A DNA stretch of 64,000 bases from Ascidia mentula (lineage: Eukaryota; Chordata; Ascidiacea; Phlebobranchia; Ascidiidae), in contig OX387204.1 in the NCBI GenBank assembly GCA_947561715.1, forward strand, positions 12,095,001-12,159,000, read 5' to 3'. Shown one piece after another: positions 3,133 through 44,888 of this stretch. Within the stretch, counting starts at the first letter, position 1. Each line of letters begins with the position of its first letter. The position numbers were made by a program, and so were the translations under genes. Under the pieces are notes generated by a model. It saw nothing but the letters and a program-made list of their open reading frames with translations, made no database searches and was not told the origin of the DNA.

Positions 3133-3140
3133 CATTACCT
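3133..3140. repeat. 8-bp target site duplication, left copy
   Basis: CATTACCT lies directly outside the left terminal repeat and recurs exactly at 21506-21513 outside the right one. An 8-bp duplication fits hAT, KDZ (Zisupton group) and many MULE-type transposons. Confidence 0.85.
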
Positions 3141-3418
3141 ACTGCTGTCATTTCGGCGAAATTTTTTTTTATATCAACGAAATATTTTTCACGCATGACT
3201 GAACACAACTTCAATGGATTTACCAAAAACAAAACACAAGTATATGCACAAATTAGAGCATAATTACCATCAAAAAACATCAATGTAACTTTGGCACACC
3301 TCCGTGATCAATTCACACTATTTTGTTTTCACAAACTGTATATACTGAGGCAGCAATACTTGTGAATTTGGATGCGAACTTACACAAAGCATCAAGTGGA
3401 GAAGTCGCTTGATATAGG
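3141..3418 (+). repeat. Outer terminal inverted repeat, left
   Basis: About 280 bp of unique sequence outside the 206-bp array. It matches the reverse complement of 21228-21505 with roughly ten differences seen by eye. It probably carries the transposase cleavage site at its outer end. It joins the first tandem unit at the motif CGCTTGATA followed by taggcgaacatttgaa. Confidence 0.85.
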
Positions 3419-3548
3419 CGAACATTTGAAACCTTTCCGGGCCGTAGGATTTTTTTAAATTTTGCACAGAGCTTGCCTGGAGCATGCAGATGAACGCGGT
3501 ATAAGTTAAAATCCCAACAGTTTTCAAGTTTCCCAGCGAAATGAACTT

Positions 3549-4286
3549 AACTTCCATACCATATGTACAGGGAGTTTCTGAGCGGATATCTAGAATACTC
3601 AACGCCACTGGAGTAAAAGTTGTTATGAAACCGGTGTGCACTTTAGAAAACATGTTTCCCAAACCCAAAGACCATATTTCCATGCTTCAAATGACCGGTG
3701 AAGTTTACTTAATACCTTGCCTTGATTGTAACACTGTGTATATTGGCCAGACTAAGCGCAATTCAACGTCCCGTATTAAAGAACACAAGGCAGCCATACG
3801 CAATATGGAACCCAACAAATCTGCTCTATGTGCTCACATGCTTGACACCGACCACCGTATCCATTGGAAGGAAGCTAAAGTATTTAAACAAGAAACAATT
3901 TTGGCAAAACGGTTGGTTGTGGAAAATTATTTTTTAATTCGCTGCCTAATGTGGTAATTCGCAGTGATGAAAAAATACTCTCGCCCGTGTTCCGCAATTT
4001 CGCCCGTAACCATTCATGACATTTTGTTTCCTATGTTTGGCCTTTTGACCCGTGATCGATATTGTCCATTCATATATGTCCCGCTGTGTTTTAGCTGTTG
4101 CGGCCTTTTGTACTTTTTCGTTGCTGAATTTCTTTGCCCTTTGGTTCGCAATCTCTACTGTGATTGTCTTATTCTCTGAAGAATCCTAGTCGTGCGTGCA
4201 GGCGAAACGTCAGAAAATACCAGTTTTTTCAACAAAAGGTGCATATTAGTGGATTTTGAACCAGAAGAACGTAACTTCCATATTTC
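3549..4286 (+). mobile_element. Penelope-like retroelement fragment with GIY-YIG endonuclease
   Basis: An open stretch from about 3549 to 3957 encodes a linker (PYVQGVSERISRILNATG) and then a GIY-YIG-type endonuclease: VYLIPCLDCNTVYIGQTKRN, SRIKEHKAAIRN, and an H-x-I-x-W motif. This is the C-terminal part typical of Penelope-like elements; the reverse transcriptase part is absent, as expected of a 5'-truncated copy. The 3' tail carries CTGAAGA and GGCGAAACGTC blocks like those near other Penelope ends. A segment of the host 206-bp repeat of about 30-35 bp (tttcaagtttcccagcgaaa and onward) lies on both sides and may be the target duplication. It is an old, broken fragment. Confidence 0.75.
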
Positions 4287-6968
4287 AGTTTTCAAGTTTC
4301 CAAGTGAAATGAACATAAGTGCAGGTCAGCGGCTGTTACGGCATAGAGCCCTTTAAGCGCGTATAGGCTGGCCACAAGGCCTATCGTACAGGCGAACATT
4401 TGAAACCTTTCCGGGCCGTAGGATTTTTTTTAAATTTGGACAGAGCTTGCCTGGAGCATGCAGATGAACGCGGTATAAGTTAAAATCCCAACAGTTTTCA
4501 AGTTTCCCAGCGAAATGAACTTAACTGCAGGTCACCGGCTATGACGTCATAGAGCTCTTCACGCGCGTATAGGCTGGCCACAAGGCCTATCGTACAGGCG
4601 AACATTTGAAATCTTTCCGGGCCGTAGGATTTTTTTTAATTTTGCATAGAGCTTGCCTGGAGCAGGTAGATGAACGCGGTATAAGTTAAAATTCCAACAG
4701 TTTTCAAGTTTCCCAGCGAAATGAACTTAACTGCAGGTCACCGGCTATGACGTCATAGAGCTCTTCACGCGCGTATAGGCTGGCCACAAGGCCTATCGTA
4801 CAGGCGAACATTTGAAACCTTTCCGGGCCGTAGGATTTTTTTTAATTTTGCACAGAGCTTGCCTGGAGCATGCAGATGAACGCGGTATAAGTTAAAATCC
4901 CAACAGTTTTCAAGTTTCCCAGCGAAATGAACTTAACTGCAGGTCACCGGCTATGACGTCATAGAGCTCTTCACGCGCGTATAGGCTGGCCACAAGGCCT
5001 ATCGTACAGGCGAACATTTGAAACCTTTCCGGGCCGTAGGATTTTTTTTAATTTTGCACAGAGCTTGCCTGGAGCATGCAGATGAACGCGGTATAAGTTA
5101 AAATCCCAACAGTTTTCAAGTTTCCCAGCGAAATGAACTTAACTGCAGGTCACCGGCTATGACGTCATACATCTCTTAACGTGCGTATAGGCTGGCCACA
5201 AGGCCTATCGTACAGGCGAACATTTGAAACCTTTCCGGGCCGTAGGATTTTTTTAAATTTTGCACAGAGCTTGCCTGAAGCATGCAGATGAACGCGGTAT
5301 AAGTTAAAATCCCAACAGTTTTCAAGTTTCCCAGCGAAATGAACTTAACTGCAGGTCACCGGCTATGACGTCATAGAGCTCTTCACGCGCGTATAGGCTG
5401 GCCACAAGGCCTATCGTACAGGCGAACATTTCAAACCTTTCCGGGCCGTAGGATTTTTTTTAATTTTGCACAGAGCTTGCCTGGAGCATGCAGATGAACG
5501 CGGTATAAGTTAAAATCCCAACAGTTTTCAAGTTTCCCAGCGAAATGAACTTAACTGCAGGTCACCGGCTATGACGTCATAGAGCTCTTCACGCGCGTAC
5601 AGGCTGGCGACAAGGCCTATCGTACAGGCGAACATTTGAAACCTTTCCGGGCCGTAGGATTTTTTTTAATTTTGCACAGAGCTTGCCTGGAGCATGCAGA
5701 TGAACGCGGTATAAGTTAAAATCCCAACAGTTTTCAAGTTTCCCAGCGAAATGAACTTAACTGCAGGTCACCGGCTATGACGTCATACATCTCTTAACGT
5801 GCGTATAGGCTGGCCACAAGGCCTATCGTACAGGCGAACATTTGAAACCTTTCCGGGCCGTAGGATTTTTTTAAATTTTGCACAGAGCTTGCCTGAAGCA
5901 TGCAGATGAACGCGGTATAAGTTAAAATCCCAACAGTTTTCAAGTTTCCCAGCGAAATGAACTTAACTGCAGGTCACCGTCTGTGACTGCATTGAGCCCT
6001 TTACGCGCGTACAGGCTGGCCACAAGACCTATCGTACAGGCGAACATTTGAAACCTTTCCGGGCCGTAGGATTTTTTTTAATTTTGCACAGAGCTTGCCT
6101 GGAGCATGCAGATGAACGCGGTATAAGTTAAAATCCCAACAGTTTTCAAGTTTCCCAGCGAAATGAACTTAACTGCAGGTCACCGTCTGTGACTGCATTG
6201 AGCCCTTTACGCGCGTACAGGCTGGCCACAAGGCCTATCGTACAGGCGAACATTTGAAACCTTTCCGGGCCGTAGGATTTTTTTTAATTTTGCACAGAGC
6301 TTGCCTGGAGCATGCAGATGAACGCGGTATAAGTTAAAATCCCAACAGTTTTCAAGTTTCCCAGCGAAATGAACTTAACTGCAGGTCACCGGCTAGACGT
6401 CATACATCTCTTAACGTGCGTATAGGCTGGCCACAAGGCCTATCGTACAGGCGAACATTTGAAACCTTTCCGGGCCGTAGGATTTTTTTTAATTTTGCAC
6501 AGAGCTTGCCTGGAGCATGCAGATGAACGCGGTATAAGTTAAAATCCCAACAGTTTTCAAGTTTCCCAGCGAAATGAACTTAACTGCAGGTCACCGGCTA
6601 TGACGTCATACATCTCTTAACGTGCGTATAGGCTGGCCACAAGGCCTCTATTACAGGCGAACATTTGAAACCTTTCCGGGCCGTAGGATTTTTTTTAATT
6701 TTGCACAGAGCTTGCCTGGAGCAGGCAGATGAACGCGGTATAAGTTAAAATCCCAACAGTTTTCAAGTTTCCCAGCGAAATGAACTTAACTGCAGGTCAC
6801 CGGCTATGACGTCATACATCTCTTAACGTGCGTATAGGCTGGCCACAAGGCCTCTATTACAGGCGAACATTTGAAACCTTTCCGGGCCGTAGGATTTTTT
6901 TTAATTTTGCACAGAGCTTGCCTGGAGCATGCAGATGAACGCGGTATAAGTTAAAATCCCAACAGTTT

Positions 6969-9440
6969 TCAAGTTTCCCAGCGAAATGAACTTAACTGCA
7001 GGTCACCTGCTGTGACGACATAGAGCCCTTCACGCGCGTATAGGCTGGCCACAAGGCCTCTCTTACAGGCGAACATTTGACACCTTTCCGGGCCGTAGGA
7101 TTTTTTTTAATTTTGCACACAGCTTGTCTGGAGCATGCAGATGAACGCGGTATAAGTTTAAATCCCAACAGTTTTCAAGTTTCCCAGCGAAATGAACTTA
7201 ACTGCAGGTCACCGTCTGTGACTGCATTGAGCCCTTTACGCGCGTACAGGCTGGCCACAAGGCCTATCGTACAGGCGAACATTTGAAACCTTTCCGGGCC
7301 GTAGGATTTTTTTTAATTTTGCACAGAGCTTGCCTGGAGCATGCAGATGAACGCGGTATAAGTTAAAATCCCAACAGTTTTCAAGTTTCCCAGCGAAATG
7401 AACTTAACTGCAGGTCACCGGCTATGACGTCATACATCTCTTAACGTGCGTATAGGCTGGCCACAAGGCCTATCGTACAGGCGAACATTTGAAACCTTTC
7501 CGGGCCGTAGGATTTTTTTTAATTTTGCACAGAGCTTGCCTGGAGCATGCAGATGAACGCGGTATAAGTTAAAATCCCAACAGTTTTCAAGTTTCCCAGC
7601 GAAATGAACTTAACTGCAGGTCACCTGCTGTGACGACATAGAGCCCTTCACGCGCGTATAGGCTGGCCACAAGGCCTATCGTACAGGCGAACATTTGAAA
7701 CCTTTCCGGGCCGTAGGATTTTTTTTAATTTTGCACAGAGCTTGCCTGGAGCATGCAGATGAACGCGGTATAAGTTAAAATCCCAACAGTTTTCAAGTTT
7801 CCCAGCGAAATGAACTTAACTGCAGGTCACCGGCTATGACGTCATACATCTCTTAACGTGCGTATAGGCTGGCCACAAGGCCTCTATTACAGGCGAACAT
7901 TTGAAACCTTTCCGGGCCGTAGGATTTTTTTTAATTTTGCACAGAGCTTGCCTGGAGCATGCAGATGAACGCGGTATAAGTTAAAATCCCAACAGTTTTC
8001 AAGTTTCCCAGCGAAATGAACTTAACTGCAGGTCACCGGCTATGACGTCATACATCTCTTAACGTGCGTATAGGCTGGCCACAAGGCCTCTATTACAGGC
8101 GAACATTTGAAACCTTTCCGGGCCGTAGGATTTTTTTTAATTTTGCACAGAGCTTGCCTGGAGCATGCAGATGAACGCGGTATAAGTTAAAATCCCAACA
8201 GTTTTCAAGTTTCCCAGCGAAATGAACTTAACTGCAGGTCACCTGCTGTGACGACATAGAGCCCTTCACGCGCGTATAGGCTGGCCACAAGGCCTCTCTT
8301 ACAGGCGAACATTTGACACCTTTCCGGGCCGTAGGATTTTTTTTAATTTTGCACACAGCTTGTCTGGAGCATGCAGATGAACGCGGTATAAGTTTAAATC
8401 CCAACAGTTTTCAAGTTTCCCAGCGAAATGAACTTAACTGCAGGTCACCGTCTGTGACTGCATTGAGCCCTTTACGCGCGTACAGGCTGGCCACAAGGCC
8501 TATCGTACAGGCGAACATTTGAAACCTTTCCGGGCCGTAGGATTTTTTTTAATTTTGCACAGAGCTTGCCTGGAGCATGCAGATGAACGCGGTATAAGTT
8601 AAAATCCCAACAGTTTTCAAGTTTCCCAGCGAAATGAACTTAACTGCAGGTCACCGGCTATGACGTCATACATCTCTTAACGTGCGTATAGGCTGGCCAC
8701 AAGGCCTATCGTACAGGCGAACATTTGAAACCTTTCCGGGCCGTAGGATTTTTTTTAATTTTGCACAGAGCTTGCCTGGAGCATGCAGATGAACGCGGTA
8801 TAAGTTAAAATCCCAACAGTTTTCAAGTTTCCCAGCGAAATGAACTTAACTGCAGGTCACCTGCTGTGACGACATAGAGCCCTTCACGCGCGTATAGGCT
8901 GGCCACAAGGCCTATCGTACAGGCGAACATTTGAAACCTTTCCGGGCCGTAGGATTTTTTTTAATTTTGCACAGAGCTTGCCTGGAGCATGCAGATGAAC
9001 GCGGTATAAGTTAAAATCCCAACAGTTTTCAAGTTTCCCAGCGAAATGAACTTAACTGCAGGTCACCGGCTATGACGTCATACATCTCTTAACGTGCGTA
9101 TAGGCTGGCCACAAGGCCTATCGTACAGGCGAACATTTGAAACCTTTCCGGGCCGTAGGATTTTTTTTAATTTTGCACAGAGCTTGCCTGGAGAATGCAG
9201 ATGAACGCGGTATAAGTTAAAATCCCAACAGTTTTCAAGTTTCCCAGCGAAATGAACTTAACTGCAGGTCACCGTCTGTGACTGCATTGAGCCCTTTACG
9301 CGCGTACAGGCTGGCCACAAGGCCTATCGTACAGGCGAACATTTGAAACCTTTCCGGGCCGTAGGATTTTTTTTAATTTTGCACAGAGCTTGCCTGGAGC
9401 ATGCAGATGAACGCGGTATAAGTTAAAATCCCAACAGTTT
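6969..9440 (+). repeat. 1236-bp higher-order repeat inside the 206-bp array
   Basis: Two stretches 1236 bases apart (6 x 206) carry the same run of unit types. For example 7077-7286 and 8313-8522 translate identically over 69 codons, including the rare variants CTCTCTTACAGGCG and CATTTGACACC. A third run with the same markers begins near 9683. This indicates duplication of a block of six units by unequal exchange or replication slippage. The boundaries given are approximate. Confidence 0.7.
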
Positions 9441-10395
9441 TCAAGTTTCCCAGCGAAATGAACTTAACTGCAGGTCACCCGCTGTGACGACATAGAGCTC
9501 TTCACGCGCGTATAGGCTGGCCACAAGGCGTCTATTACAGGCGAACATTTGAAACCTTTCCGGGCCGTAGGATTTTTTTTAATTTTGCACAGAGCTTGCC
9601 TGGAGCATGCAGATGAACGCGGTATAAGTTAAAATCCCAACAGTTTTCAAGTTTCCCAGCGAAATGAACTTAACTGCAGGTCACCTGCTGTGACGACATA
9701 GAGCCCTTCACGCGCGTATAGGCTGGCCACAAGGCCTCTCTTACAGGCGAACATTTGACACCTTTCCGGGCCGTAGGATTTTTTTTAATTTTGCACACAG
9801 CTTGTCTGGAGCATGCAGATGAACGCGGTATAAGTTAAAATCCCAACAGTTTTCAAGTTTCCCAGCGAAATGAACTTAACTGCTGGTCACCCGCTGTGAC
9901 GACATAGAGCCCTTCACGCGCGTATAGGCTGCCAACAAGGCCTCTCTTACAAGCGAACATTTGAAACCTTTCCGGGCCGTAGGATTTTTTTTAATTTTGC
10001 ACAGAGCTTGCCTGGAGCATGCAGATGAACGCGGTATAAGTTAAAATCCCAACAGTTTTCAAGTTTCCCAGCGAAATGAACTTAACTGCAGGTCACCGGC
10101 TATGACGTCATACATCTCTTAACGTGCGTATAGGCTGGCCACAAGGCCTATCGTACAGGCGAACATTTGAAACCTTTCCGGGCCGTAGGATTTTTTTTAA
10201 TTTTGCACAGAGCTTGCCTGAAGCATGCAGATGAACGCGGTATAAGTTAAAATCCCAACAGTTTTCAAGTTTCCCAGCGAAATGAACTTAACTGCAGGTC
10301 ACCGGCTGTGACGACATAGAGCCCTTTACGCGTATAGGCTGGCCACAAGGCCCTTGGCACAGGCAAACATTTGAAACCTTTACGGGCCCGTAGGA

Positions 10396-10832
10396 GAAGA
10401 TTGGCTGGCGATAAATTGGTGAAGATGGCAGTTTATCACTTAATTGCATTTGAGGTGGGCGAATGGTATCATCGGCCAAGGTGTCCTAAGTGTATGACAA
10501 GCTAAAAACCTGATCAAAATTCTTGCCAGTGAAGCGTTAAAAAAAATAGTTACAATTCAGTAATCTGTCAGAAAATACAACAATAAGAAGCCGTCAGGTT
10601 TGGTTTGTACTGTTAATAAAAAAAAGTATGGTTCAGCAACCAATTAAGATCCGTCGCATTTCACATAAACCTATCATTTTTATTTACAGAAAATTGCTAT
10701 TTATCAACTTGCTGAATAACGAAAAGATCGAAGCCGCAACTGTGTGAAACCATCCGTGCTCATAACGTAAATTTCTCAACCACCAACGACACTGCTGTGT
10801 ATAACGACGAAAGACCGAAGTCGCAATCGACG
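10396..10832. other. Left inner unique region of the transposon
   Basis: Non-repetitive sequence between the left array and the first ORF, likely the promoter and 5' leader of the transposon genes. No clear TATA box or other motif was recognised. The ATG at 10833 sits in a favourable context (cgacgATGG). Confidence 0.5.
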
Positions 10833-13595
10833 ATGGGAAGAAGAACGCCGCCCAAGAAATATAAAGTTGGAGTTTCCGGAAAGCAGACATGTTACCTCCG
10901 TGCTGAGGGGTCGCCACTTCCTTCCGTGTTGTTGGTGACCGACAGCAACGGGAGGAACATTGCTACGTTTCCATGGCCACATTTGTACATAGCCCGAAAA
11001 CATGGCCCGATCATATACTAGGCCCGAACGAACAGGCGCAAAACGGCTTGCGTTTCCATGTCCGTTCAGACTTGTGCATGTTGTGGAAAGTACGGCCAAA
11101 TAATGCTGTCTTTCTGGTTATTAGACATAAAAGGGTGCCACAGAACATTGAATTCCCAAGAAAATTATAAAATACTGTACAACACCACCAACCTAGCCTA
11201 TTTCCACTTTTTGTGAAAATTAAGAAGTTTTAAACAGTTGTACACATTACAGATTCCATCATATAACTGTGCCCAGCATTAGACAGTAACATATTTTCTA
11301 GGGTGCAAAGTATCTGGAGTTAAATAGTCTAAATAAAAAAGCCAAAGCTAGAATGCTGTTCATCATAATGCTGGTAGACATATTTTCTATATCTTTGATT
11401 TTTTTAATCCACACAAAACTTTGTGATTTTATTTATTGAATTGAAACAAAACATGGTACACAATTCATTCATAGGTGAGCATTCACAAGGCCCATTTGCT
11501 TTCAATGGTTAGGTCCATACACACATAATACTGTGCACCATGATCAAGCTCATGTGAAGTTTCAATGACTGACCATTTTCATATGTCTGCATGAGCTTTA
11601 AATGTTTACTGGATTAACAACCTAATGCATTGTTTACAAAACATTTGTATGTGATAACAAGTCATCAAAATGTATGTGATAACAAGGGAAGCATATGGTG
11701 ATCCTTGTAGAATGGGAAGTTCCTTCAAATACAACTTGATTTCTGAACTTTCAAGCCAGTAGCTACCTGACAATTAATATCCATAAATTTACAAAAAAGA
11801 ATTAAATTGCAAATAATTAGTCATAAATGGTGAAGCTGTGACCTTTCTAATTTCATCAGCAACCAGCTGTACAGTGAGTCTACCACAATCCGGTTCATAG
11901 CATTTTTGCAAGGTGGCTATATAGTCACATTTTTGTCTCCCTGCAAGGATAATATTTTCAATAAATTGTTACTACTCAAGTTAACAACACTAACGCCATT
12001 CGCAGAACTATTTCTTATCACCACACGACTGCACAGTTACAACTTCAAAAAAACCGAAATCCGTCGGGCCGAGTACAGGGCTGCCAGATGGTTAAAACAC
12101 TTGACGGCCAATTTTTTTTTCTCTTACGGCCAAAATTCGGCCAAATCACGTTTTTGATATTTTTTTCTCTTACGGCCAAAATTCGGCCAAATCACGTTAT
12201 AAGTTTGATGATTTCTACAAAAACGACTACATAGCCGGAAATAAATTCGTAAATTGTATGTTCAAAACACTGTTATCTATATGCTTATCAGTGGTTTCAA
12301 AACCGGTTATGTTGCTAAAGCATTACGATTGCAGCATAATTCTTTACCAACTCAGTCAAGATTAGTTTATGACGTAACAATTTTTCGGAGACATATTTAT
12401 GACAACACAATCGTCCACAAATCTGTTGATAACCTGAAACCAGCAATGCCTTTTGTGGATTTATATAGTACCAAGTGAAATTCGGCCAAATTCGGCCAAA
12501 TATCTGCCTTACGGCCAAACGATTTTTTCGCGGCCAGGCCGATTTTCAAACGGCCAAATTTCTGGAATTTGGCCGTGAAGACGGCCAAATGGCAACCCTG
12601 GCCGAGTATACTCCGCCTCAACTCGGTCAGGCAACCCCTTCTAGACCGCCCGACCGATCGCCAGTTCAGGCGCAGTAAAGCGCCTCGTTTTACTACGTCA
12701 CTTCCGTTTTTCGGCCTTCGGGCCGAGTACTGCGCCTGAAAAGTGGCCATGGAAACGTAGTAATTGTCTGCCCCAGGTGGTATCGTCGGATAGTGAACTA
12801 TTTACGTTAAGTGCTATTTCTATTCCAGGGGGAACACTGAACCATGGAGCGGAGGAACTCATGTACGGGAAAAGGTTCGGGTCAGTTGATTTTATCATTC
12901 TGGCTCTTGGTACGAACGACTTGGTCTCTCGGCATGTGGATCACCACCATAGCAGTATCGGGACCGATTTTCAACATCTGATCGAGGTGTGCCAACAAAC
13001 GTACCCGCAGTCTCAGGTTGGTTGCATGTATTATACAAAAGTGCTGTTTGTTCCTGTTACTGCTTATTTGGCTCCAGGTGATGATAAGACTGTGAAAGGT
13101 AAAACAAACCAAGATATGGTTGATAAAAGCACGTTTCAATCGTCGTCTTCTGGTCTTGGCTTTCAGTCGCCTGCTGTAAGTCCATCGGTCGCATTTTCAC
13201 CGGCTTCCCCAGCACCTTCGTCGGCTGCATACACTTCAGAAATTGCACGCAATAGTTTAGGAGATAAGATACCGGCAATTATTACCAGGGATTTGGGTGA
13301 TCAAAACAACGACATAAATTTGTTTTCCAAATCGCAGGAAAACTTTGATGTGGTAAGCGAACTAGGTGGAATAAGTTTCGAAACGCAAAATAAGTTTCAA
13401 CATACAGCTGATGTCGCAATAGATGATGTTTTCGTTTTTTCACTTCAGGAATGGACAACAATTATTCAAAATAGATCCGCAAATCACTTTGGCAATGATA
13501 CGTACATTGATGTAACTGTAAGGCGCCTTCGCAAAATTTACTCTGGTTGTGTCCGAACGTATCCAACAATTATTTGGTTAACTTCAATGCTGTGA
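10833..13595 (+). CDS. Transposon ORF1: SGNH-hydrolase-like, split by a nested element
   Basis: The first part (10833-10963) begins MGRRTPPKKYKVGVSG and contains SVLLVTDSNGRNIA, an SGNH block I with its GDS-like Ser. The frame is then interrupted by a TA-flanked element (10966-12757) of 1794 bases counting one TA. It continues in the same phase from 12760 with IPGGTLNHGAEEL and FIILALGTNDL (block III GTND), then a Ser/Pro-rich tail, ending at 13595. The block V Asp/His pair of SGNH enzymes is not evident, so activity is doubtful. SGNH domains are known from some retroelement ORFs, where their role is unclear. The tail overlaps the main ORF in another frame by 49 bases; an intron or a frame change must link them if they form one protein. 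The element could be removed as part of an intron, but its ends are not GT-AG. Confidence 0.6.
12068..12608. repeat. 8-bp target duplications of the nested hAT-type element
   Basis: GCCGAGTA at 12068-12075 and again at 12601-12608 bracket the element at 12076-12600 exactly. Confidence 0.85.
12076..12600. mobile_element. 525-bp non-autonomous hAT-type element (MITE)
   Basis: Its ends are CAGGGCTGCCAGATGG and the reverse complement of CAGGGTTGCCATTTGG, imperfect terminal repeats with the CAGGG start typical of hAT elements, plus an exact 8-bp duplication (GCCGAGTA). The interior is rich in CGGCCAAA / TTTGGCCG motifs near both ends, probably transposase-binding repeats. It has no coding capacity of its own. 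It lies inside another element inside the large transposon, so it is the youngest layer of that stack. Confidence 0.85.
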
Positions 13596-16500
13596 AAAAT
13601 ATTAAGAAATCTGACGAATGTTACAAAGAAGGTTGGGTTAACTTCTATTGTGCACATAAAAGATGTGAGAGTTGTATGTGTGAGGTAAAATTTGTAGTGA
13701 CGTTTTGGTCGTTTGTGGACAAAGTTGAAGGTCGTGTGAAGATATGTGGGAAAAGAAACCATCACCGCGCTTGTAAAAAATGTAGACGTGTAAGTGGACT
13801 AATGAGGGAAGGACTTCGCAAAAAAATGCAGCATCAAACTGCAGTGAAACAATATCGCGAAATGTTTGACGAATTATCGCCAGAAGAACGTTGGTTAGGG
13901 GCATGTACGTACTTACCCTCGCAATCAGTTTTAAACAACATTAAAAGTGAACACAGTGGCAGCAAACGAATAAGCGATTCATGGTTTTTAAATTTAAATA
14001 TACAGCGACTGCAAATGGATGAAAAGTTTATTCGTTGTATTTCGGCGCATTTTCCTATGGTGGCAATGTATTCCGACGCACAGATAAAAATTTTTAATCG
14101 CGTGTGCGCGTTTGATATTGCGTATTTTGATTCTACCGGCAGTGTGCTGCGCCGAATTGAAAACTATTCTAATTTTCAAGTGTACACCTTACTAATTCGA
14201 AATCCAACTAAAGGTGGCGCACCACTTCCGGTTGCAACTTGCGTGACATCAAAGCATGATGCGATCACTATTAGTCATTTTTTGGAAACCTTTCTCTCCG
14301 ATTGTCTTAAAGTGTGTAGCGTGTCTCGAAAACCCAAACTGCTTATCATTGATGGCTCGATGGCAATGTGGAACGCTGTTTTAAAGGCATTTTGTCGGGA
14401 AACTCGTATAGAATTTTACAACAGGTGTTATCGAATTTTAACAGGCGTTCCAGAGCATGGCGATTTGCAGAAAACTGTGGTCCATAATTGCTACAGCCAT
14501 GCAATGAAAGCAGCCAAAATTTTATGCAACAGACACTGTCAAAGTTCAAAATTGTTGAAGACTTATTTGTTCTGGTTAAACATATTTTTTAATTGCGAGA
14601 ATTTTACGGATCTAGATATGGCTGTGGAAAGTTTTATTGTTTTGACTAACAGTGAAATTCCTTCCTCATTAGTCGAATTTCATTACAACCGCTTGAAATC
14701 CAAAGGTGCGTCCGGTAAATTCAATTTTGATGACACTGACGACGACAAGGGTGTGGCAGGGCACACAGATTATGTTTTTTCGAGTAAAGAAACAGATAAA
14801 TTACAGGAAAAACAGTCCCCATTTTTTATTCGATACAAACGGAAATTAGAAAACTTTTTGAAAACATGTTCCAAGACACCAACCTCTTCACAAATTGGCG
14901 CCAATGTCTATTACAATCCGAAATTGTGTGAACGTTTGATAGATGTGATTTTAAGCAGAATATGTTCAACCTCTAAGTTAATGCTTGGGGATTTGTCGCG
15001 GCATTTCCACGACAGCAAATCCACCAAAGAACAGGCCAACATGTTTATTACGTACTCGAAAGATTGCAATGTGATAAAGAGTTGCCTCCACCAAACAATC
15101 CTTCACAATAACAAAACACAAGGAATTATTGAGGAACATTTTCGAGATTTGAAACGAAACATAATTGATGGAAAGCGAATAGCTCGAATAGACGATTTTG
15201 CTTTGAAATACTTTGATGCCATTAAAGTTTTGCAAAAACTGTTTGCCGATTCGTTAATGAGCTTTCGTGGAAAAGCGAACAAATCCCCTTCAAACCCAAG
15301 CAAAACTGAAACCGCCGAGCGTACATTGGTTGTGGAGTCAAAGTTTAAAAAGAGGAAAAGAAACAAAACTAGTTTTTATTCATCAGAAGTCATATGTAAA
15401 CGTTTAAAATACGAAAACGAAAAATCACTTTCTCCGCAACCAATGTTAACACTTAAGTGCACCCCGACAATGCCATTTTTTACAAACTGTCCAAAACAAA
15501 ATGAAAATTTTCACGACTGTAAGAAAATTGCAGATTTCGTTTGGAATCATATTCCTTTTACCCCAACTTCAATTTTTGACACCGCCCTCGTCATGCCCTG
15601 CCGTCAGTCAGTTTCTTGGTTAGATTTGTGTTCCCTTTGCAGTAGACCTCGTGGAAAAACTTATTGTGCTTTAACTCAAAACCCGGCGAAAACACACAGT
15701 GACTCGACAATTGGTTGGCTAACGGAAAACGTTGTAGATTGTTATATTTCAAGAACTCTCCGCCGTTGTAATTTGCGCATGCCTGGGACGTTTGGTTTTG
15801 TGTCAAGTAGGACATCGGGAGAAGTGCTGCGAGGCAAAGAGTTCAAAAGTAACCGCAGGGCATTTCATACCTTGTTTTGTAATGAACAGTTGGTTAAACA
15901 CGCATTTATTCCATTACTTCATGAAGGCCATTTTGTTGTTTTGTGGTTAAAACATTTTGAGAATGAATTGGTTTTCTATGATTCTGCCGGAACTCCGCGA
16001 AAGGAACTTACGTCTCTGATAAAAAGATTTTTAATTCCAATTTTAATTTCAATTACCGGTCATGATATTTCTCTTAAATCTGATTCATTGGTGACTCAAT
16101 GCGATTTGTCCAGTTGTGGTGTGTGTCTGTGTTTCACTGTGGACAAAATAGCAAACAATATAGTTGGGATTGATGAGATTGAGTTCGACGTTGCGCGGTA
16201 TCGTATTTGGATTGTTTTTGCGCTTGTCCAGGAATCGATGAGTTGCAGTGATAAAATAATTTCTTGGATTGTTAAAAGCAAGCTAGTTTTGCCTGGTCTT
16301 TCCAATTTATGCAACAACTGTTGGTTGAATTCCGTCCTGCAAGCTGTTCAATGTTTGTTAGATGACACTTGTATTTTTCCAAAAGAAACTGACATAAAAG
16401 GTAAAATTGGCCAATTTGTTTATCACCTAGCTCATAAACTTGTCGATTCCACGTCATACTTGCAGTTGGTAAAAGACGTTTGTTGTCTGCTTAGTTTTAC

Positions 16501-17311
16501 GTTAGGTCAGCAGCAGGACCCTATTGAATTTTTAATGCTAATTGATTTTGTTTCCGTTTTGAAAAATTGTGGTCTATATTCGTCGTTTAATTATAATACA
16601 GCAACAACTTGCAAGACATGTGGCAACCAGGAGAAATTTGAGAACGAGCAATCTGTACTGACATTGCCGTTGTTCGATCACATCCCGGACAACGGCCATC
16701 TCAGCACGTATTGTGAAACTGAGTTTCACAACGTTGCCACCAGCCACTGTTCACATTGCAATTTGAATACGGAGAAGACGATTAGTAGTGAGATCAAAAG
16801 TCCAAAAGATGTTTTGTGCATTGCAGTTTTTAGAAATGTAGGCGGCAAAAAAAGTAGTAAGCGCATTGTCCCAGATGAATTTTTGCCTGTTTCAAATGGA
16901 GTAATGTTTAGGCTTGTGTCTGTTATTGTTCACATAGGATCTGCTGTCAACTCGGGTCATTATTTGGCGTATAAATTTTCTCAAGAAAATTTGACAGAAT
17001 ACAATGACGATATAGTGAAATATGTGACATGGAACAGCGTAAAAGAAAGGGTATTTACTAGTAGTTGCATTTTTTATTATAAGAAAGTCAAGTCCGATAT
17101 TCAGTCTCCCATTTCACCTCAGCCAAAGATTGTTGTCCATCGCAAACCGCGCCGTTTCAACGAGGCAGCAGCGAAATCTACGGATCGCATTATACACAGA
17201 AATTTTCTTCTTGAACAATACAATGATGGAAGAAGTATTGTAATTTCGGATGTTACGAAATTGACCCCCGCAATAAAACAATCATATGACTTCGTTTATA
17301 AAGAAAATTAA
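13547..17311 (+). CDS. Transposon ORF2: DDE transposase + Ulp1-like + USP-like protease domains
   Basis: The frame is open for 1254 codons. The first in-frame codon is TTG and an earlier exon or frame change probably supplies the start. In order: a Cys/His cluster (residues ~34-80: CAHKRCESCMC, then CGKRNHHRACKKC); a DDE-like core with Asp195 in YFDSTGSV, Asp269 in LLIIDGS, CxxH at 315 (NCYSHAMKAAK) and a possible Glu361 in DMAVESF; a linker; a Ulp1/C48-type domain with His795 (EGHFVVLW), Asp812 (VFYDSAG), Gln851 and Cys857 (SSCGV); and a C19-type ubiquitin protease with Cys925 (NLCNNCWLNSVLQ), QQDPIEFL, two CxxC pairs, His1138 (NSGHYLAYKF) and Asp1154. All catalytic residues of both proteases appear present. 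Ulp1 domains in MULE and KDZ transposons are known; a USP joined to them is not something I recognise. An AATAAA lies at 17411-17416. Confidence 0.85.
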   Translation: MCPNVSNNYLVNFNAVKNIKKSDECYKEGWVNFYCAHKRCESCMCEVKFVVTFWSFVDKVEGRVKICGKRNHHRACKKCRRVSGLMREGLRKKMQHQTAVKQYREMFDELSPEERWLGACTYLPSQSVLNNIKSEHSGSKRISDSWFLNLNIQRLQMDEKFIRCISAHFPMVAMYSDAQIKIFNRVCAFDIAYFDSTGSVLRRIENYSNFQVYTLLIRNPTKGGAPLPVATCVTSKHDAITISHFLETFLSDCLKVCSVSRKPKLLIIDGSMAMWNAVLKAFCRETRIEFYNRCYRILTGVPEHGDLQKTVVHNCYSHAMKAAKILCNRHCQSSKLLKTYLFWLNIFFNCENFTDLDMAVESFIVLTNSEIPSSLVEFHYNRLKSKGASGKFNFDDTDDDKGVAGHTDYVFSSKETDKLQEKQSPFFIRYKRKLENFLKTCSKTPTSSQIGANVYYNPKLCERLIDVILSRICSTSKLMLGDLSRHFHDSKSTKEQANMFITYSKDCNVIKSCLHQTILHNNKTQGIIEEHFRDLKRNIIDGKRIARIDDFALKYFDAIKVLQKLFADSLMSFRGKANKSPSNPSKTETAERTLVVESKFKKRKRNKTSFYSSEVICKRLKYENEKSLSPQPMLTLKCTPTMPFFTNCPKQNENFHDCKKIADFVWNHIPFTPTSIFDTALVMPCRQSVSWLDLCSLCSRPRGKTYCALTQNPAKTHSDSTIGWLTENVVDCYISRTLRRCNLRMPGTFGFVSSRTSGEVLRGKEFKSNRRAFHTLFCNEQLVKHAFIPLLHEGHFVVLWLKHFENELVFYDSAGTPRKELTSLIKRFLIPILISITGHDISLKSDSLVTQCDLSSCGVCLCFTVDKIANNIVGIDEIEFDVARYRIWIVFALVQESMSCSDKIISWIVKSKLVLPGLSNLCNNCWLNSVLQAVQCLLDDTCIFPKETDIKGKIGQFVYHLAHKLVDSTSYLQLVKDVCCLLSFTLGQQQDPIEFLMLIDFVSVLKNCGLYSSFNYNTATTCKTCGNQEKFENEQSVLTLPLFDHIPDNGHLSTYCETEFHNVATSHCSHCNLNTEKTISSEIKSPKDVLCIAVFRNVGGKKSSKRIVPDEFLPVSNGVMFRLVSVIVHIGSAVNSGHYLAYKFSQENLTEYNDDIVKYVTWNSVKERVFTSSCIFYYKKVKSDIQSPISPQPKIVVHRKPRRFNEAAAKSTDRIIHRNFLLEQYNDGRSIVISDVTKLTPAIKQSYDFVYKEN

Positions 17312-17356
17312 TGGGATTTTGTCAAAATCTTTTGAGCAAGGAAAAGATCTACCGGA

Positions 17357-17638
17357 ATGTTACCGCCTATGTTTATATTACCACGGAAAAAAAATGTGTT
17401 GATAAACTACAATAAACACTTTTCACACCTTAAAATCTCCCAAGATGAAATGAACAATACAATGCGATTCGTTGAATACTCGTTTTGTCGTCGTCTCGTG
17501 CGACAACGACTTGTTGGTAGTCAGGTTTTCCGGGAATCGTTTTGCGGCCGAGATTTGAAACCAGATTTGTTTGTGCAAGGAAGCATGATCAGTGAGATGT
17601 TGAAAGATGAGACACTGAATTTTAATTTTTTTTTTTGA
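17357..17638 (+). CDS. Small ORF after the transposase, function unknown
   Basis: 93 codons beginning 45 bases after the ORF2 stop and ending in a Phe run (NFNFFF) encoded by a T-tract. It contains a basic stretch (FCRRLVRQRLVG). No family is recognised. It could be a C-terminal exon of the main protein, a small accessory product, or chance. A candidate poly(A) signal at 17411-17416 lies inside it, which argues against a real gene. Confidence 0.2.
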   Translation: MLPPMFILPRKKNVLINYNKHFSHLKISQDEMNNTMRFVEYSFCRRLVRQRLVGSQVFRESFCGRDLKPDLFVQGSMISEMLKDETLNFNFFF

Positions 17639-18263
17639 TAACATTTTGTACTTTGAGGCATTAATTGGTTATTTTATGAGTGTGGGTAACAGTGCCTACG
17701 AGGAAACATGTAGAAGGGTCGGTTCTAAACCATCGCTTTATATTTAAAAATGCAAAGTAGATTTTTTTCATTTTTTTTATTTTGATTTATTGGTTAATCT
17801 AAGTATACTGGGCAATAAGCAGTGTTACCCGGGTCGACACTGTATAGACAAGGTTTTAATTTTCCCGCTACAGAGACCCCGCCCACCATACGTTAATTAA
17901 GGAATCCATTCACATATTTTTTTTAATTATATTTGTGTTTGCCGTAACGATATTTTGGAGTGATTATATTGTTTTGATTCAAATCAGTTATTTTCTTCAT
18001 TTGGATACACTTGCGTCCAAATGTTGTTTTATCTGCAAAATAAAACCACTACGATTGCCGGAACCTTGACGTGGTGTAGTGGCTTTGTACCAATACCGGC
18101 ACTAACTAAAACAAATCGAATCAATCACCACTAAAGCAAAGAGAGTCAATGTCCATGAAGTCATGTTCATTTTCGAATACTTGGAACATACCGATAACCT
18201 TCGTTAACGCCAGAATGAGCAAGTTATGTTTTAGCCATGTCGCTAGCGTATACGAGGGCAATG
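17639..18263. other. Right inner unique region of the transposon
   Basis: AT-rich, non-repetitive sequence between the gene block and the right array. No ORF, inverted repeat or other structure that I can name; presumably the 3' UTR and spacer of the transposon gene. Confidence 0.5.
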
Positions 18264-21231
18264 GACCGCGTTCATCTGCATGCTCCAGGCAAGCTCTGTG
18301 CAAAATTAAAAAAAATCCTACGGCCCGGAAAGGTTTCAAATGTTCGCCTGCACGAGAGGCCTTGTTGCCAGCCTATACGCGCGTAAGGGCTCTATGCCGT
18401 CACAGCGGGTGACCTGTAGTTAAGTTCATTTCGCTGGGAAACTTGAAAACTGCTGGGATTTTACCGTATACCGCGTTCATCTGCATGCTCCAGACAAGCT
18501 CTGTGCAAAATATAAAAAAATCCTACGGCCCGGAAAGGTTTCAAATGTTCGCCTGTACGATAGGCCTTGTAGCCAGCCTGTACGCGCGTAAAGGGCTCTA
18601 TTCCGTCACAGACGGTGACCTGCAGTTAAGTTCATTTCGCTGGAAAACTTGAAAACTGTTGGGATTTTAACTTATACCGCGTTCATCTACATGCTCCAGG
18701 CAAGCTCTGTGCAAAATTAAAAAAATCCTACGGCCCGGAAAGGTTTCAAATGTTCGCCTGTACGATAGGCCTTGTGGCCAGCCTATACGCGGGTGAAGAG
18801 CTCTATGACGTCATAGCCGATGACCTGCAGTTAAGTTCATTTCGCTGGGAAACTTGAAAACTGTTGGGATTTTAACTTATACCGCGTTCATCTGCATGCT
18901 CCAGGCAAGCTCTGTCCAAATTCAAAAAAAATTCTACGGCCCGGAAAGGTTTCAAATGTTCGCCTGTACGATAGGCCTTGTGGCCAGCCTATACGCGCTT
19001 TAAGAGATGTATGACGTCATAGCCGGTGACCTGCAGTTAAGTTCATTTCGCTGGGAAACTTGAAAACTGTTGGGATTTTAACTTATACCGCGTTCATCTG
19101 CATGCTCCAGGCAAGCTCTGTGCAAAATTAAAAAAATCCTACGGCCCAGAAAGGTTTCAAATGTTCGCCTGTACGATAGGCCTTGTGGGCAGCCTATACG
19201 CGCGTAAAGAGCTCTATGACGTCATAGCCGGTGACCTGCAGTTAAGTTTATTTCGCTGGGAAACTTGAAAACTGTTGGGATTTTAACTTATACCGCGTTC
19301 ATCTGCATGCTCCAGGCAAGCTCTGTGCAAAATTAAAAAAAATCCTACGGCCCGGAAAGGTTTCAAATGTTCGCTTGTAAGAGAGGCCTTATTGGCAGCC
19401 TATACGCGCGTGAAGGGCTCTATGTCGTCACAGCGGGTGACCTGCAGTTAAGTTCATTTCGCTGGGTAACTTGAAAACTGTTGGGATTTAAACTTATACC
19501 GCGTTCATCTGCATGCTCCAGACAAGCTGTGTGCAAAATTAAAAAAAATCCTACGGCCCGGAAAGGTGTCAAATGTTCGCCTGTAAGAGAGGCCTTGTGG
19601 CCAGCCTATACGCGCGTGAAGGGCTCTATGTCGTCACAGCAGGTGACCTGCAGTTAAGTTCATTTCGCTGGGAAACTTGAAAACTGTTGGGATTTTAACT
19701 TATACCGCGTTCATCTGCATGCTCCAGGCAAGCTCTGTGCAAAATTAAAAAAAATCCTACGGCCCGGAAAGGTTTCAAATGTTCGCCTGTAATAGAGGCC
19801 TTGTGGCCAGCCTATACGCGCGTGAAGAGCTCTATGTCGTCACAGCGGGTGACCTGCAGTTAAGTTCATTTCGCTGGGAAACTTGAAAACTGTTGGGATT
19901 TTAACTTATACCGCGTTCATCTGCATGCTCCAGGCAAGCTCTGTGCAAAATTAAAAAAAATCCTACGGCCCGGAAAGGTTTCAAATGTTCGCCTGTAGGA
20001 GAGGCCTTGTGGCCAGCCTATACGCGCGTGAAGGGCTCTATGTCGTCACAGCGGGTGACCTGCAGTTAAGTTCATTTCGCTGGGAAACTTGAAAACTGTT
20101 GGGATTTTAACTTATACCGCGTTTATCTACATGCTCCAGGCAAGCTCTGTGCAAAATTAAAAAAAATCCTACGGCCCGGAAAGGTTTCAAATGTTCGCCT
20201 GTACGATAGGCCTTGTAGCCAGCCTGTACGCGCGCAAAGGGCTCTATGCCGTCACAGACGGTGACCTGCAGTTAAGTTCATTTCGCTGGAAAACTTGAAA
20301 ACTGTTGGGATTTTAACTTATACCGCGTTCATCTACATGCTCCAGGCAAGCTCTGTGCAAAATTAAAAAAAATCCTACGGCCCGGAAAGGTTTCAAATGT
20401 TCGCCTGTACGATAGGCCTTGTGGCCAGCCTATACGCGCGTAAAGAGCTCTATGACGTCATAGCCGGTGACCTGCAGTTTAGTTTATTTCGCTGGGTAAC
20501 TTGAAAACTGTTGGGATTTTAACTTATACCGCGTTCATCTACATGCTCCAGGCAAGCTCTGTGCAAAATTAAAAAAAATCCTACGGCCCGGAAAGGTTTC
20601 AAATGTTCGCCTGTAGGAGAGGCCTTGTGGCCAGCCTATACGCGCGTGAAGGGCTCTATGTCGTCACAGCGGGTGACCTGCAGTTAAGTTCATTTCGCTG
20701 GGAAACTTGAAAACTGTTGGGATTTTAACTTATACCGCGTTTATCTACATGCTCCAGGCAAGCTCTGTGCAAAATTAAAAAAAATCCTACGGCCCGGAAA
20801 GGTTTCAAATGTTCGCCTGTACGATAGGCCTTGTGGCCAGCCTGTACGCGCGCAAAGGGCTCTATGCCGTCACAGACGGTGACCTGCAGTTAAGTTCATT
20901 TCGCTGGAAAACTTGAAAACTGTTGGGATTTTAACTTATACCGCGTTCATCTACATGCTCCAGGCAAGCTCTGTGCAAAATTAAAAAAAATCCTACGGCC
21001 CGGAAAGGTTTCAAATGTTCGCCTGTACGATAGGCCTTGTGGCCAGCCTATACGCGCGTAAAGAGCTCTATGACGTCATAGCCGGTGACCTGCAGTTTAG
21101 TTTATTTCGCTGGGAAACTTGAAAACTGTTGGGATTTTAACTTATACCGCGTTCATCTACATGCTCCAGGCAAGCTCTATGCAAAATTAAAAAAAATCCT
21201 ACGGCCCGGAAAGGTTTCAAATGTTCGCCTG
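18264..21231 (-). repeat. 206-bp tandem repeat array, right arm (~14 units)
   Basis: The same 206-bp unit as in the left arm but reverse-complemented, with the same subtypes (CTATGACGTCATAG, CTGTGACGACATAG, and GACGGTGACC-containing units). Some variants, such as CCTGTAGGAGAGGCC, are specific to this arm. About 14 units span 2968 bases. Arms of different length show that the unit number changes independently on each side. Confidence 0.95.
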
Positions 21232-21505
21232 TATCAAGCGACTTCTCCACTTGATGCTTTGTGTAAGTTCGCATCCAAATTCACAAGTATTGCTGCCTCA
21301 GTATATACATTTTGTGAAAACAAAATAGTGTGAATTGATCATGGTGGTGTGCCAAAGTTACATTGATGTTTTTGAATGGTCATTATGTTCTAATTTGTTC
21401 ATATACTTGTGTTTTGTTTTTGGTAAATCCGTTGAAGTTGTGTTCAGTCATGCGTGAAAAATATTTCGTTGATATAAAAAAAAATTTCGCCGAAATGACA
21501 GCAGT
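21228..21505 (-). repeat. Outer terminal inverted repeat, right
   Basis: Reverse complement of 3141-3418 with about ten visible differences. It ends ...CGCCGAAATGACAGCAGT directly before the right target duplication. Confidence 0.85.
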
Positions 21506-21513
21506 CATTACCT
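21506..21513. repeat. 8-bp target site duplication, right copy
   Basis: CATTACCT, identical to 3133-3140, directly outside the right end of the transposon. Confidence 0.85.
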
Positions 21514-21659: not shown

Positions 21660-21764
21660 TAACGGCGAACATAATTTCGTTTCCCAGTAATTAAAAAAAA
21701 TTGCTAACCAACAAAAAGGTCCCCACACCCTGACCCAGAATACAAGTTAATTCACTTGGGGACT
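21660..21764 (+). repeat. Dispersed ~104-bp repeat, copy 2
   Basis: Matches 1326-1429 in the same orientation with a few substitutions. Lies just outside the transposon, on the opposite side from copy 1. Confidence 0.6.
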
Positions 21765-43022: not shown

Positions 43023-43890
43023 ATGGGAAACAGCATATTATTTTTGCTAATAATCCACTGCTTTGTATCTGGCACATTTTTATCCAACATTACTAACGAG
43101 ACAACAGTTATTGATATCTTCAATCCATATTCTCCAAAGATTTTGTGTCACTTGCTGTAAGATATTTATGATATATACATCTAGTTTCAATTTACAAATA
43201 AAACAAATCGTAGGATTTACTTTAGATGCAAGGCTCATGGATCATATCAGAGCTACATTGATTGTATTTTTTGTGTAACCCATAATTCACTGTATAGATC
43301 ATATATTTGCATGTTGTGTATTTTATGTAACCATAAAATGACATTTTACTTTCTTAGACCTGAGGAGTTTGTTGTATGTGAAGAGCCTTCATTTTCAACC
43401 AACGAAAGTGTTTCAAATGACAATTTCACATGTTCAGCTTTGGTAAGAATAAAGGTAATAGTCTAAATTACAATGTTTAAAAATTTTTTTTTAGATTGAC
43501 AAGAAGTATCATCACAGTGAAGTACAAGTTACATCTGTTATTTGTCAAGTGGTGGATAGCAGTATTGAGTGCACTGGAAATAGAACGTTTGTGAAAGAAG
43601 GAGTGCCTTGCCTTAAGTAATTATTATTTTATTTTGTAACAATGTTAACATTTAAAATTTTGTTTTGTTTTGGCAGATACACAGGCTACTGCTTTATAAC
43701 TGTGCTTCTACAGTCTGTCTTTTTGGGTTGTCTTGGAGTAGATAGATTTTATCTTGGATACCCAGGCTCAGGGGTTGGAAAGCTAATAACCCTTGGTGGG
43801 GTTGGTCTTTGGTGGTTCATTGACATTATTTTGTTGCTCACTGGTGTATTGGTTCCAGAAGATAAAAGTGACTGGTGCATTTACTACTGA
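43023..43890 (+). CDS. TM2D2: TM2 domain-containing protein 2
   Basis: Small membrane protein of the TM2D family (almondex/TM2D relatives linked to Notch signalling in flies). Four exons (43023-43156, 43358-43442, 43495-43616, 43677-43890) give 184 residues. The start at 43023 gives a signal peptide ([20 protein letters not shown]). The lumenal part has several N-glycosylation sequons (NIT, NET, NFT, NRT) and the family motif [16 protein letters not shown]. The TM2 domain follows: [24 protein letters not shown] between the two membrane helices, then [20 protein letters not shown] and the short tail SDWCIYY. The pattern fits TM2D2 better than TM2D1 or TM2D3. The stop at 43888-43890 lies 8 bases before the IGBP1 start, so the two are probably one operon. 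Confidence 0.92.
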
Positions 43891-43898
43891 GGTTCATA
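43876..43898 (+). promoter_or_regulatory. Putative trans-splice acceptor between TM2D2 and IGBP1
   Basis: The TM2D2 stop codon TGA overlaps an AG (43890-43891) preceded by a moderately pyrimidine-rich stretch (catttactactgag) and followed 7 bases later by the IGBP1 ATG. In tunicate operons the downstream mRNA is capped by spliced-leader trans-splicing at such a site, often with almost no spacer. This is inference from spacing; no leader read is available. Confidence 0.5.
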
Positions 43899-44888
43899 AT
43901 GGAAACAGCAAGCAGCTTGGAAGATCGGAAGCTGATTGATGTTTTTAGTGAAGCTTGGGACCTACAACAAGCAATTACTAACAGTTCTGAACCAACTGCA
44001 TCGGACAAAGTTCAGCAGGAGATTATAAATGCTCTTGCTTCTTTGGACTTGCTATGCAAATGTGTCGAGCAGCTTGGCATGTTCAGCAGTAATGAAGAAA
44101 TAGAGGAAGTGGTTACATCAGATTTACGATACATTTTACTTCATGCCTTAATAGCCGATATAACTTCACATAAAAAATGTGATATTCAGCAGAGACTTAC
44201 AATCCTGAGTACTTGTCAGGAAAATTATGTTTCATTCCTAAAACGCTGTGCTTTATATAACATTGTGGATTCTACACTTGTAGAAGAAGTTCTCAAAGAC
44301 TCAAACAGCAATTCAAGATTTTTTGGGAAACCGGACATTCATGCAATGAATGCAGCAAGAGATGTGAAAATAAAAAAATATCAGGAAGGAAAACTACGGT
44401 CACAAAAACTGAAAGATCTTGAAAGTCATTTGCATGAAGAAGAGTCTAGCAGGGAGTATTGGCTTTTGCAAATTCGTAAGTGGGTCGACACAGCCATAGA
44501 TGAACTGCGAAGCATGAAAGATGAAATCAGCATGTTGGAAAAAATGAAAAATGTTCCAAAGGCAGAAATTGATCAGTCCAGAAAAGAGGCTCGAAAGGCA
44601 AGTGGCATGAAACCATTCATTCTCACCAAAGACAAGTTGCAGGCATCGGTGTTTGGTGCCGGCTACCCAAGTGTGCCTACTGTAACCTTGGAAGAGTATT
44701 TCCAGCGTGAGGCAGCAGCTGGTAGAATGCCTGATCAGGCATCTGCACCTGCTAAAGACAAGACAAGTGAAGATACTGAGAAAGATTCGGATAATGAAAC
44801 CGATGAAAAATTAAAAAAAGAAAGAGAATTGGATGACTGGAAAGATGATCATAGAAGGGGTGCTGGGAACCGCAAAAACATGGGATAA
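43899..44888 (+). CDS. IGBP1: Immunoglobulin-binding protein 1 (alpha4/TAP42)
   Basis: Regulatory partner that binds and protects catalytic subunits of PP2A, PP4 and PP6, downstream of TOR signalling. A single uninterrupted exon encodes 329 residues (family about 340). The helical N-terminal TAP42 part begins METASSLEDRKLIDVFSEAW. ADITSHKKCDIQQRLTILST is followed by the PP2A-binding region RDVKIKKYQEGKLRSQKLKD. The C-terminus has the diagnostic MKPFILTKDKLQASVFGAGY and the acidic/basic tail ELDDWKDDHRRGAGNRKNMG. I chose the ATG at 43899 because the in-frame ATG at 43875 overlaps TM2D2 and adds an unrelated extension. Lack of introns and the 8-base spacer fit a downstream operon gene. A candidate poly(A) signal is at 45051-45056. 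Confidence 0.95.
   Translation: METASSLEDRKLIDVFSEAWDLQQAITNSSEPTASDKVQQEIINALASLDLLCKCVEQLGMFSSNEEIEEVVTSDLRYILLHALIADITSHKKCDIQQRLTILSTCQENYVSFLKRCALYNIVDSTLVEEVLKDSNSNSRFFGKPDIHAMNAARDVKIKKYQEGKLRSQKLKDLESHLHEEESSREYWLLQIRKWVDTAIDELRSMKDEISMLEKMKNVPKAEIDQSRKEARKASGMKPFILTKDKLQASVFGAGYPSVPTVTLEEYFQREAAAGRMPDQASAPAKDKTSEDTEKDSDNETDEKLKKERELDDWKDDHRRGAGNRKNMG

Follow-up and report, generated by a model that had tools for sequence, protein, structure and literature searches.

Here we describe an open reading frame, and the large DNA transposon that surrounds it, in a 64,000-nucleotide stretch of the genome of the ascidian Ascidia mentula (contig OX387204.1, positions 12,095,001 to 12,159,000 of the forward strand). 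This whole stretch is called the window below, and positions are counted from its first letter. A single frame joins a DDE transposase core to two cysteine protease domains, one of the Ulp1 fold and one of the USP (C19) deubiquitinase family and, judged from its sequence, it is what survives of a transposase gene within a single decayed member of a large DNA transposon family. The frame lies at exactly the coordinates given in a preliminary description of the window, and the central claim of that description, that one frame within a mobile element carries the DDE core, the Ulp1-type protease and the USP in this order, is borne out by conserved residues, by fold and by Pfam UCH. The parts of the frame are as follows:

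13547..17311, + strand: reported open frame, 1254 amino acids, stop included
13628..13801, + strand: Cys/His cluster, probably zinc-binding, with C35, H37, C40, C43, C45, H72 and C76 invariant in the 13 aligned copies
14060..15271, + strand: DDE transposase core (D195, D269, C315-x2-H318, E529)
15329..15406, + strand: basic stretch VVESKFKKRKRNK, a likely nuclear localisation signal
15542..16237, + strand: Ulp1-fold protease (H795, D812, Q851, C857)
16283..17092, + strand: USP (C19) deubiquitinase domain (N920, C925, H1138, N1153, D1154; zinc pairs C1022/C1025 and C1068/C1071)

At the composition of the window, an open run of 1266 codons has a chance log10 probability of about -39, and this value, together with the genomic copies, ends and target site duplications described below, rejects a chance frame. 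The sole Pfam domain in the 1254-amino-acid frame is UCH (E 6e-11, 42.8 bits against a cut-off of 23.9).

Genomic copies and the three enzymes

Searching the host genome (195.8 Mb in 79 contigs) in all six frames yielded at least 48 rows that match the window frame, the counts being a lower bound. At least 20 of these, among them the window copy itself, span residues 3-1182 or more. An internal stop is absent from 19 of the 20 long copies, and open frames reach 2596 codons. Thirteen of the 20, the window copy among them, were aligned. The seven outside the alignment are three rows resembling copy K (same frame length, nearly the same identity), copy J, which is 99% like copy I, and the copies at C69:9936009, C67:9222152 and C70:3358357, of which the last contains one stop. 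In the 12 aligned copies apart from that of the window the frames are 1871-2596 codons long; identity to the window copy ranges from 33 to 97%, and the key residues of all three enzymes are kept in 13 of 13 copies, except for the Ulp1 acid.

Support for the USP comes from Pfam and from its residues. Pfam UCH was matched in all 13 copies at E values up to 10, and all 13 places scored above the cut-off in a further search. N920, C925, H1138, D1154 and the four zinc-pair cysteines are invariant (13/13), and position 1153 is Asn in 11 copies and Asp in two. We take these positions to be the oxyanion Asn, the catalytic Cys, His and Asn/Asp and the CxxC zinc pairs, position 1153 presumably being the third residue of the triad by analogy with USP2. 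The preliminary description had named lack of the USP in related elements as the mark of a private capture or a host gene; all 13 aligned copies retain it. The USP part of the protease structure model, with a predicted local distance difference test score (pLDDT) of about 30-50, was of too low quality for use.

For the Ulp1-type protease, which had been proposed alongside the USP, the support comes from fold and from profile alignment. H795, Q851 and C857 are invariant (13/13), and the acid position is Asp in nine copies and Asn in four. A predicted model, of low confidence (mean pLDDT 43.9), has the CE-clan fold, and its best matches are SUMO and NEDD8 proteases, with NEDP1 and the SENPs separated by 1 to 2 Z units in this low-confidence comparison. 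Alignment by hhalign to the Ulp1 domain of the resident locus L035 brings the H, D, Q and C of the two together (E 1e-13) and, on this evidence, the Ulp1 domains of the element and of L035 are homologous. L035 (L035:501-3597) is itself a transposon with a MULE DDE, SWIM, Ulp1 and a C-terminal PHD finger, and several genomic MULE and C48 rows are spaced about 2 kb apart, as they are in L035.

CE-clan proteases of some large DNA viruses cut polyproteins, and the Ulp1-fold domain could likewise serve to process the giant protein into parts, leaving the USP alone to act on host tags. Such a role would suit a very large multi-domain product, and viral CE-clan core proteases are indeed among the fold matches, at Z about 10, below the SENPs. 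The best fold matches, however, are the SUMO and NEDD8 proteases, and the sequence match tested is to Ulp1 from a MULE element of this genome; we regard self-processing as rather improbable.

In the DDE core, D195, D269, C315, H318 and E529 are unchanged in 13 of 13 copies. Predicted-structure comparison places the fold closest to IS256, hAT and P transposases, and the C-x2-H after the second Asp, like the IS256-like fold, is a MULE-type trait. An hhalign comparison of the DDE profile with two resident MULE frames (L035 and L036) gave nothing above the shuffled control. Among the Pfam families named in the preliminary description, UCH was found, whereas Peptidase_C48, MULE and KDZ had no match in any of the 13 copies (C48 at E up to 10), so that membership of the Kaonashi-type MULE or the KDZ (Zisupton) transposons is not supported by Pfam. 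The genome's 87 C48 rows include no aligned copy, and its 6 KDZ rows lie elsewhere. In viral structures, the DDE model finds its best fold match in O92526, a polydnavirus protein that is uncharacterised (E 9e-9 and probability 1.00, but with a TM score of 0.3 and a root-mean-square deviation of 22), followed by a hAT-like pandoravirus protein (E 6e-5), and 26 pattern matches in viral contigs included no relative.

The ratio of nonsynonymous to synonymous divergence (dN/dS) is below 1 in every unsaturated comparison of the three domains (12 copy pairs, of which 10 are unsaturated per domain): 0.08-0.41 in the DDE core, 0.11-0.41 in the Ulp1 domain and 0.11-0.66 in the USP. The hydrophobic, PHD and C-terminal parts, found in the longer copies, give 0.14-0.38 in six of seven pairs, the seventh being saturated. 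By this measure the giant exon that encodes these parts is under purifying selection. These values bear on the idea that both proteases are catalytically dead passengers, which could explain the Asp/Asn variation at the Ulp1 acid and the failure of Pfam to detect the domain. The Ulp1 His, Gln and Cys, the USP Asn, Cys, His and Asp and both CxxC pairs are nevertheless invariant in 13 of 13 copies down to 33% identity, and dN/dS is below 1; we therefore consider dead passengers very improbable. Divergence is uneven along some copies: copy D is a mosaic, close to copy B in the DDE core (synonymous divergence, dS, 0.20) and close to copy F in the Ulp1-USP part (dS 0.08-0.10), and copies G and H diverge by 0.23 in the DDE core and by 0.04-0.07 in the proteases. 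Recombination or conversion between elements is therefore indicated. Copy F adjoins a gene frame for listerin, an E3 ubiquitin ligase (L015:1-2985, - strand, E 2e-18).

Structure of the element

The domain order in the giant exon is in-frame minisatellite, hydrophobic segment, PHD finger, Cys/His cluster, DDE core, Ulp1-fold protease, USP and C-terminal extension. The minisatellite keeps its place in the coding part and its unit sequence varies between subfamilies, with units of 51, 54, 57 or 81 bp (copies B, D, E, F, H, I and J), and a hydrophobic peak is present in 6 of the 7 copies tested. With E values up to 10 allowed, every aligned copy except that of the window matches Pfam PHD (12 of 13; best E 4e-7). 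The best solved relatives of this finger are of the KDM7/PHF2 type. The methyl-lysine cage of PHF8, whose positions we take to be Tyr, Tyr, Met and Trp, reads Tyr/Phe, Tyr, Met and Trp in the 11 copies with a complete PHD stretch; in copy H the locus ends within the stretch.

Upstream of the giant exon, 9 of 11 copies (the window remnant included) carry an SGNH hydrolase in two exons, which are predicted to be spliced in frame onto it. In all six copies worked out, with sites picked by eye, both introns have GT/AG ends and the second exon is in frame with the giant exon. Pfam Lipase_GDSL_2 scored above its cut-off in the three spliced predictions tested, and the Ser, Gly, Asn and Asp-x-x-His of the SGNH blocks are visible in 6 of 6 copies. 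A GDSL-like piece in the upstream frame of the window was considered as foreign sequence and rejected, as it is the element's own exon 1.

Set against these copies, the 1254 amino acids of the window are a fragment, because the window copy has suffered inserts, a 2.8-kb loss, a change of frame and an early end. About 2.8 kb of copy B lying 5' of the matching part (in-frame repeats, hydrophobic segment and PHD finger) is lost, the reading frame shifts near 13550 and ends prematurely at 17311, and a 1.8-kb nested insert (10963-12762) interrupts SGNH exon 1. A further insert in the left arm (3553-4285) contains a GIY-YIG-like piece just under the Pfam cut-off and is perhaps part of a Penelope-like retroelement. 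The element and its parts outside the open frame are:

3141..21505, + strand: whole element, 18,365 bp, with ACTGCTGTCATTTCGGCGAAATTTT at both ends in inverted orientation (terminal inverted repeat match)
3133..3140, no strand: left target site duplication CATTACCT, 8 bp
21506..21513, no strand: right target site duplication CATTACCT, 8 bp
3141..10395, + strand: left arm, a 272-bp unique outer part followed by about 30 units of a 206-bp tandem repeat, with the insert 3553-4285 within it
10833..10964, + strand: first piece of the remnant SGNH-hydrolase exon 1 (tblastn)
12756..13019, + strand: second piece of the same exon (tblastn), separated from the first by the nested insert
13064..17932, + strand: part of the element that matches copy B at 98%
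18265..21505, - strand: right arm, about 14 inverted 206-bp units (18265-21233) and a unique outer part (21234-21505)

The terminal inverted repeats pair 3141-3552 with 21505-21094, and each arm ends outward in the 272-bp unique stretch and the terminus ACTGCTGTCATTTCGGCGAAAT. Allowing up to 2 mismatches, this terminus occurs 201 times in the genome, against no occurrence of a reversed-pattern control. Other 8-bp duplications flank the four further copies with both ends in reach (5/5 with the window), and 10 more end pairs gave an exact 8-bp duplication in eight cases, a 9-bp one in one and none in one, with 0 of 90 in a mispaired control; in total, 13 of the 15 elements checked have 8 bp, one has 9 bp and one has none. 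A duplication of about 9 bp is usual in Mutator-like elements. Of 11 copies, nine have tandem arrays on either side (units of about 182-206 bp), and in all nine copies with both arrays the two match solely in inverted orientation (same-strand matches 0/9); in copies I and J the analysed stretch ends just as it enters the inverted left array at its inner edge. By its inverted tandem-repeat arms, 8-bp duplications and many copies, the element is a foldback-type cut-and-paste transposon. Several end pairs, among the matches listed, are only 1-2.5 kb apart and are likely non-autonomous derivatives. Two short end pairs (C1:14629053-14630476 and C1:18814329-18815402) each have an exact 8-bp duplication. 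A repeat of about 105 bp, 95% identical and in the same orientation, flanks the window element at 1326-1429 and 21660-21764.

Relatives and known systems

Relatives outside this genome were sought among 5.8 billion proteins, a search that reaches those of similar length that have exact 5-residue words in common with the query. The complete order of DDE, Ulp1 and USP, which the preliminary description had proposed to look for in other tunicates and invertebrates, is found in P0004, a European Nucleotide Archive (ENA) record with a Pfam USP match above the cut-off (E 3e-17). The ENA records P0003 (PHD, DDE, Ulp1) and P0006 (DDE, Ulp1) reach only the first part of the USP; only P0004 is complete enough for Pfam, so the USP call in these two relies on an alignable Cys box, to which P0003 adds the zinc pairs (Pfam misses the USP in P0003 and gives E 0.078 in P0006). 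All three relatives that extend past Ulp1 run on into USP, but the USP has weaker backing among them than within this genome. The remainder stop earlier: P0002 (Styela clava) and P0005 (ENA) contain the PHD and DDE part and end before the USP, as does P0007 (ENA) with the DDE core and the start of Ulp1, and P0008 from a catfish has the DDE core (25% over 296 amino acids) and ends at the Ulp1 start, where C48 scores below its cut-off (E 0.004). P0009, an ENA record of 2664 amino acids in whose giant frame nothing but a UCH domain is identified, was dropped (E 0.006, 22% identity over 16% of the query).

These relatives also bear on whether the frame might belong to the host or be privately captured by one copy, as would fit a USP closest to the host-type USP36/USP12. 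At least 20 long dispersed copies, the target site duplications, the 201 ends and the same domain order in relatives refute both, and the probability left to them is negligible.

Foldback elements such as FB/NOF and Tetris, most of them held to be Mutator-like, have long inverted arms, tandem repeats of about 200 bp and a unique outer flank in common with the present element, and in the part of the source available Tetris has duplications of 8-10 bp and no coding capacity (PMC4079207). Here, by contrast, the middle of the element codes for several enzyme and reader domains, and its arms are of greater length (7.3 and 3.2 kb in the window copy). Rehavkus, compared by description only, likewise has a PHD finger, a single open reading frame, a minisatellite and a MULE-related DDE, but its duplication is 9 bp and its terminal inverted repeats are 26-400 bp, as against mostly 8-bp duplications and multi-kb arms here, and the available description mentions neither Ulp1 nor USP (PMC6446971). 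Among Mutator-like elements with Ulp1 (Kaonashi/KIU and L035), Ulp1 follows the transposase as it does here, and L035 also has a PHD finger; L035 differs in sitting at Pfam MULE and C48 rows, with no USP match in its Ulp1 frame.

Proteases are fused to other transposases as well. Ginger1 transposons have Ulp1 or OTU, and once PHD, but with a Gypsy-integrase-type DDE and, in the table available, one protease at a time; the Trichomonas protein XP_001314237.1 joins transposase_11 to Peptidase C19, so a USP is fused to a DNA transposase there too, but the transposase domain is another one, the host is a protist and the available text does not mention Ulp1 (both PMC2836005). Helitrons with VTD and OTU likewise have two cysteine protease domains of deubiquitinase families per transposon, with activity shown for VTD alone, but they are rolling-circle elements with other protease families, and the accessible text mentions no SUMO-type protease (PMC9741609). 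Ulp1, OTU and PHD in transposases, foldback arms, one C19 transposase and two-protease Helitrons are thus already published; no cut-and-paste transposase with both Ulp1 and USP appeared among the matches listed in full-text searches of open-access papers (a scope outside which subscription papers and Repbase fall), and the element family is possibly a new superfamily.

Elsewhere in the window, a TAP42-like gene lies at 43875-44888 (E 3.5e-68), BTB, BACK and weak laminin-G frames occur at other places, and Rfam at gathering scores gave no match over the window.

A possible role for the two proteases

Our preferred reading, which we hold to be somewhat favoured by the sequence evidence, is that the window element is a decayed copy of a foldback cut-and-paste family whose proteases would remove SUMO and ubiquitin at the transpososome. 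In this mechanism, the PHD finger (KDM7/PHF2-like) would tether the complex to H3K4-methylated chromatin, and the DDE core would cut at the terminal ACYRYYGTCATTTCGGCGAAAT ends. Acting on the transposase itself and on host proteins bound to chromatin, the two cysteine proteases would take off SUMO (or NEDD8) and ubiquitin, and SUMO-dependent silencing and proteasomal turnover would thereby be countered during transpososome assembly. The sequences show the anatomy, mobility through the target site duplications, and conservation and selection of the catalytic sites; the activity of the two proteases, a site of action close to the transpososome and the targets are inferred. Transposon-encoded deubiquitinases of another family have been shown to be active and, in the part of the study available, a protective effect on proteins that transposition requires is suggested for them (PMC9741609). 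In Vandal elements an Ulp1 domain has been taken up by an anti-silencing gene, and its own role there is unknown according to the available text (PMC13317346). Because of these active deubiquitinases and this uptake of Ulp1, we favour a role against silencing and turnover. Taken by itself, local removal of both SUMO and ubiquitin for this purpose is a tentative proposal, to which we give slightly less than even weight.

Several observations weigh against this reading. The Ulp1 acid is Asn in the four copies counted above, Peptidase_C48 finds none of the aligned copies, and whether SUMO, NEDD8 or ubiquitin is the substrate of the Ulp1 domain cannot be read from its modelled fold. The basic linker between the DDE core and Ulp1 is laxer, with a dN/dS of 1.5 in the nearly identical pair A/B. 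The hydrophobic peak was not found in copy X, the seventh of the copies tested, and in copies K and X a search for the SGNH exons found none within the stretch analysed for each. The splicing of the giant exon is itself a prediction.

The proteases might instead act after cutting, remodelling SUMO and ubiquitin marks on repair factors for the processing of excised and inserted ends. A repair role has been put forward for the Ulp1 and OTU domains of Ginger transposases, in the part of the source available (PMC2836005), and the same anatomy fits it. The present evidence does not tell this account from transpososome-level removal; we judge a repair role unlikely, though less so than the other alternatives.

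It is possible, at a little under even weight, that these giant foldback DDE transposons form a new lineage at the rank of a superfamily, in which one protein reads active chromatin through its PHD finger, cuts DNA and erases SUMO and ubiquitin locally, with an SGNH hydrolase in most subfamilies. If true, such a mobile element would bring along a two-pronged counter-defence of its own against protein modification by the host. Several unrelated transposons bear a deconjugating protease, for a reason that has never been tested. Here a SUMO-type and a ubiquitin-type protease are kept together under purifying selection, beside a histone reader and a transposase, and single-residue knock-outs in one protein could directly address what such proteases do for transposons.

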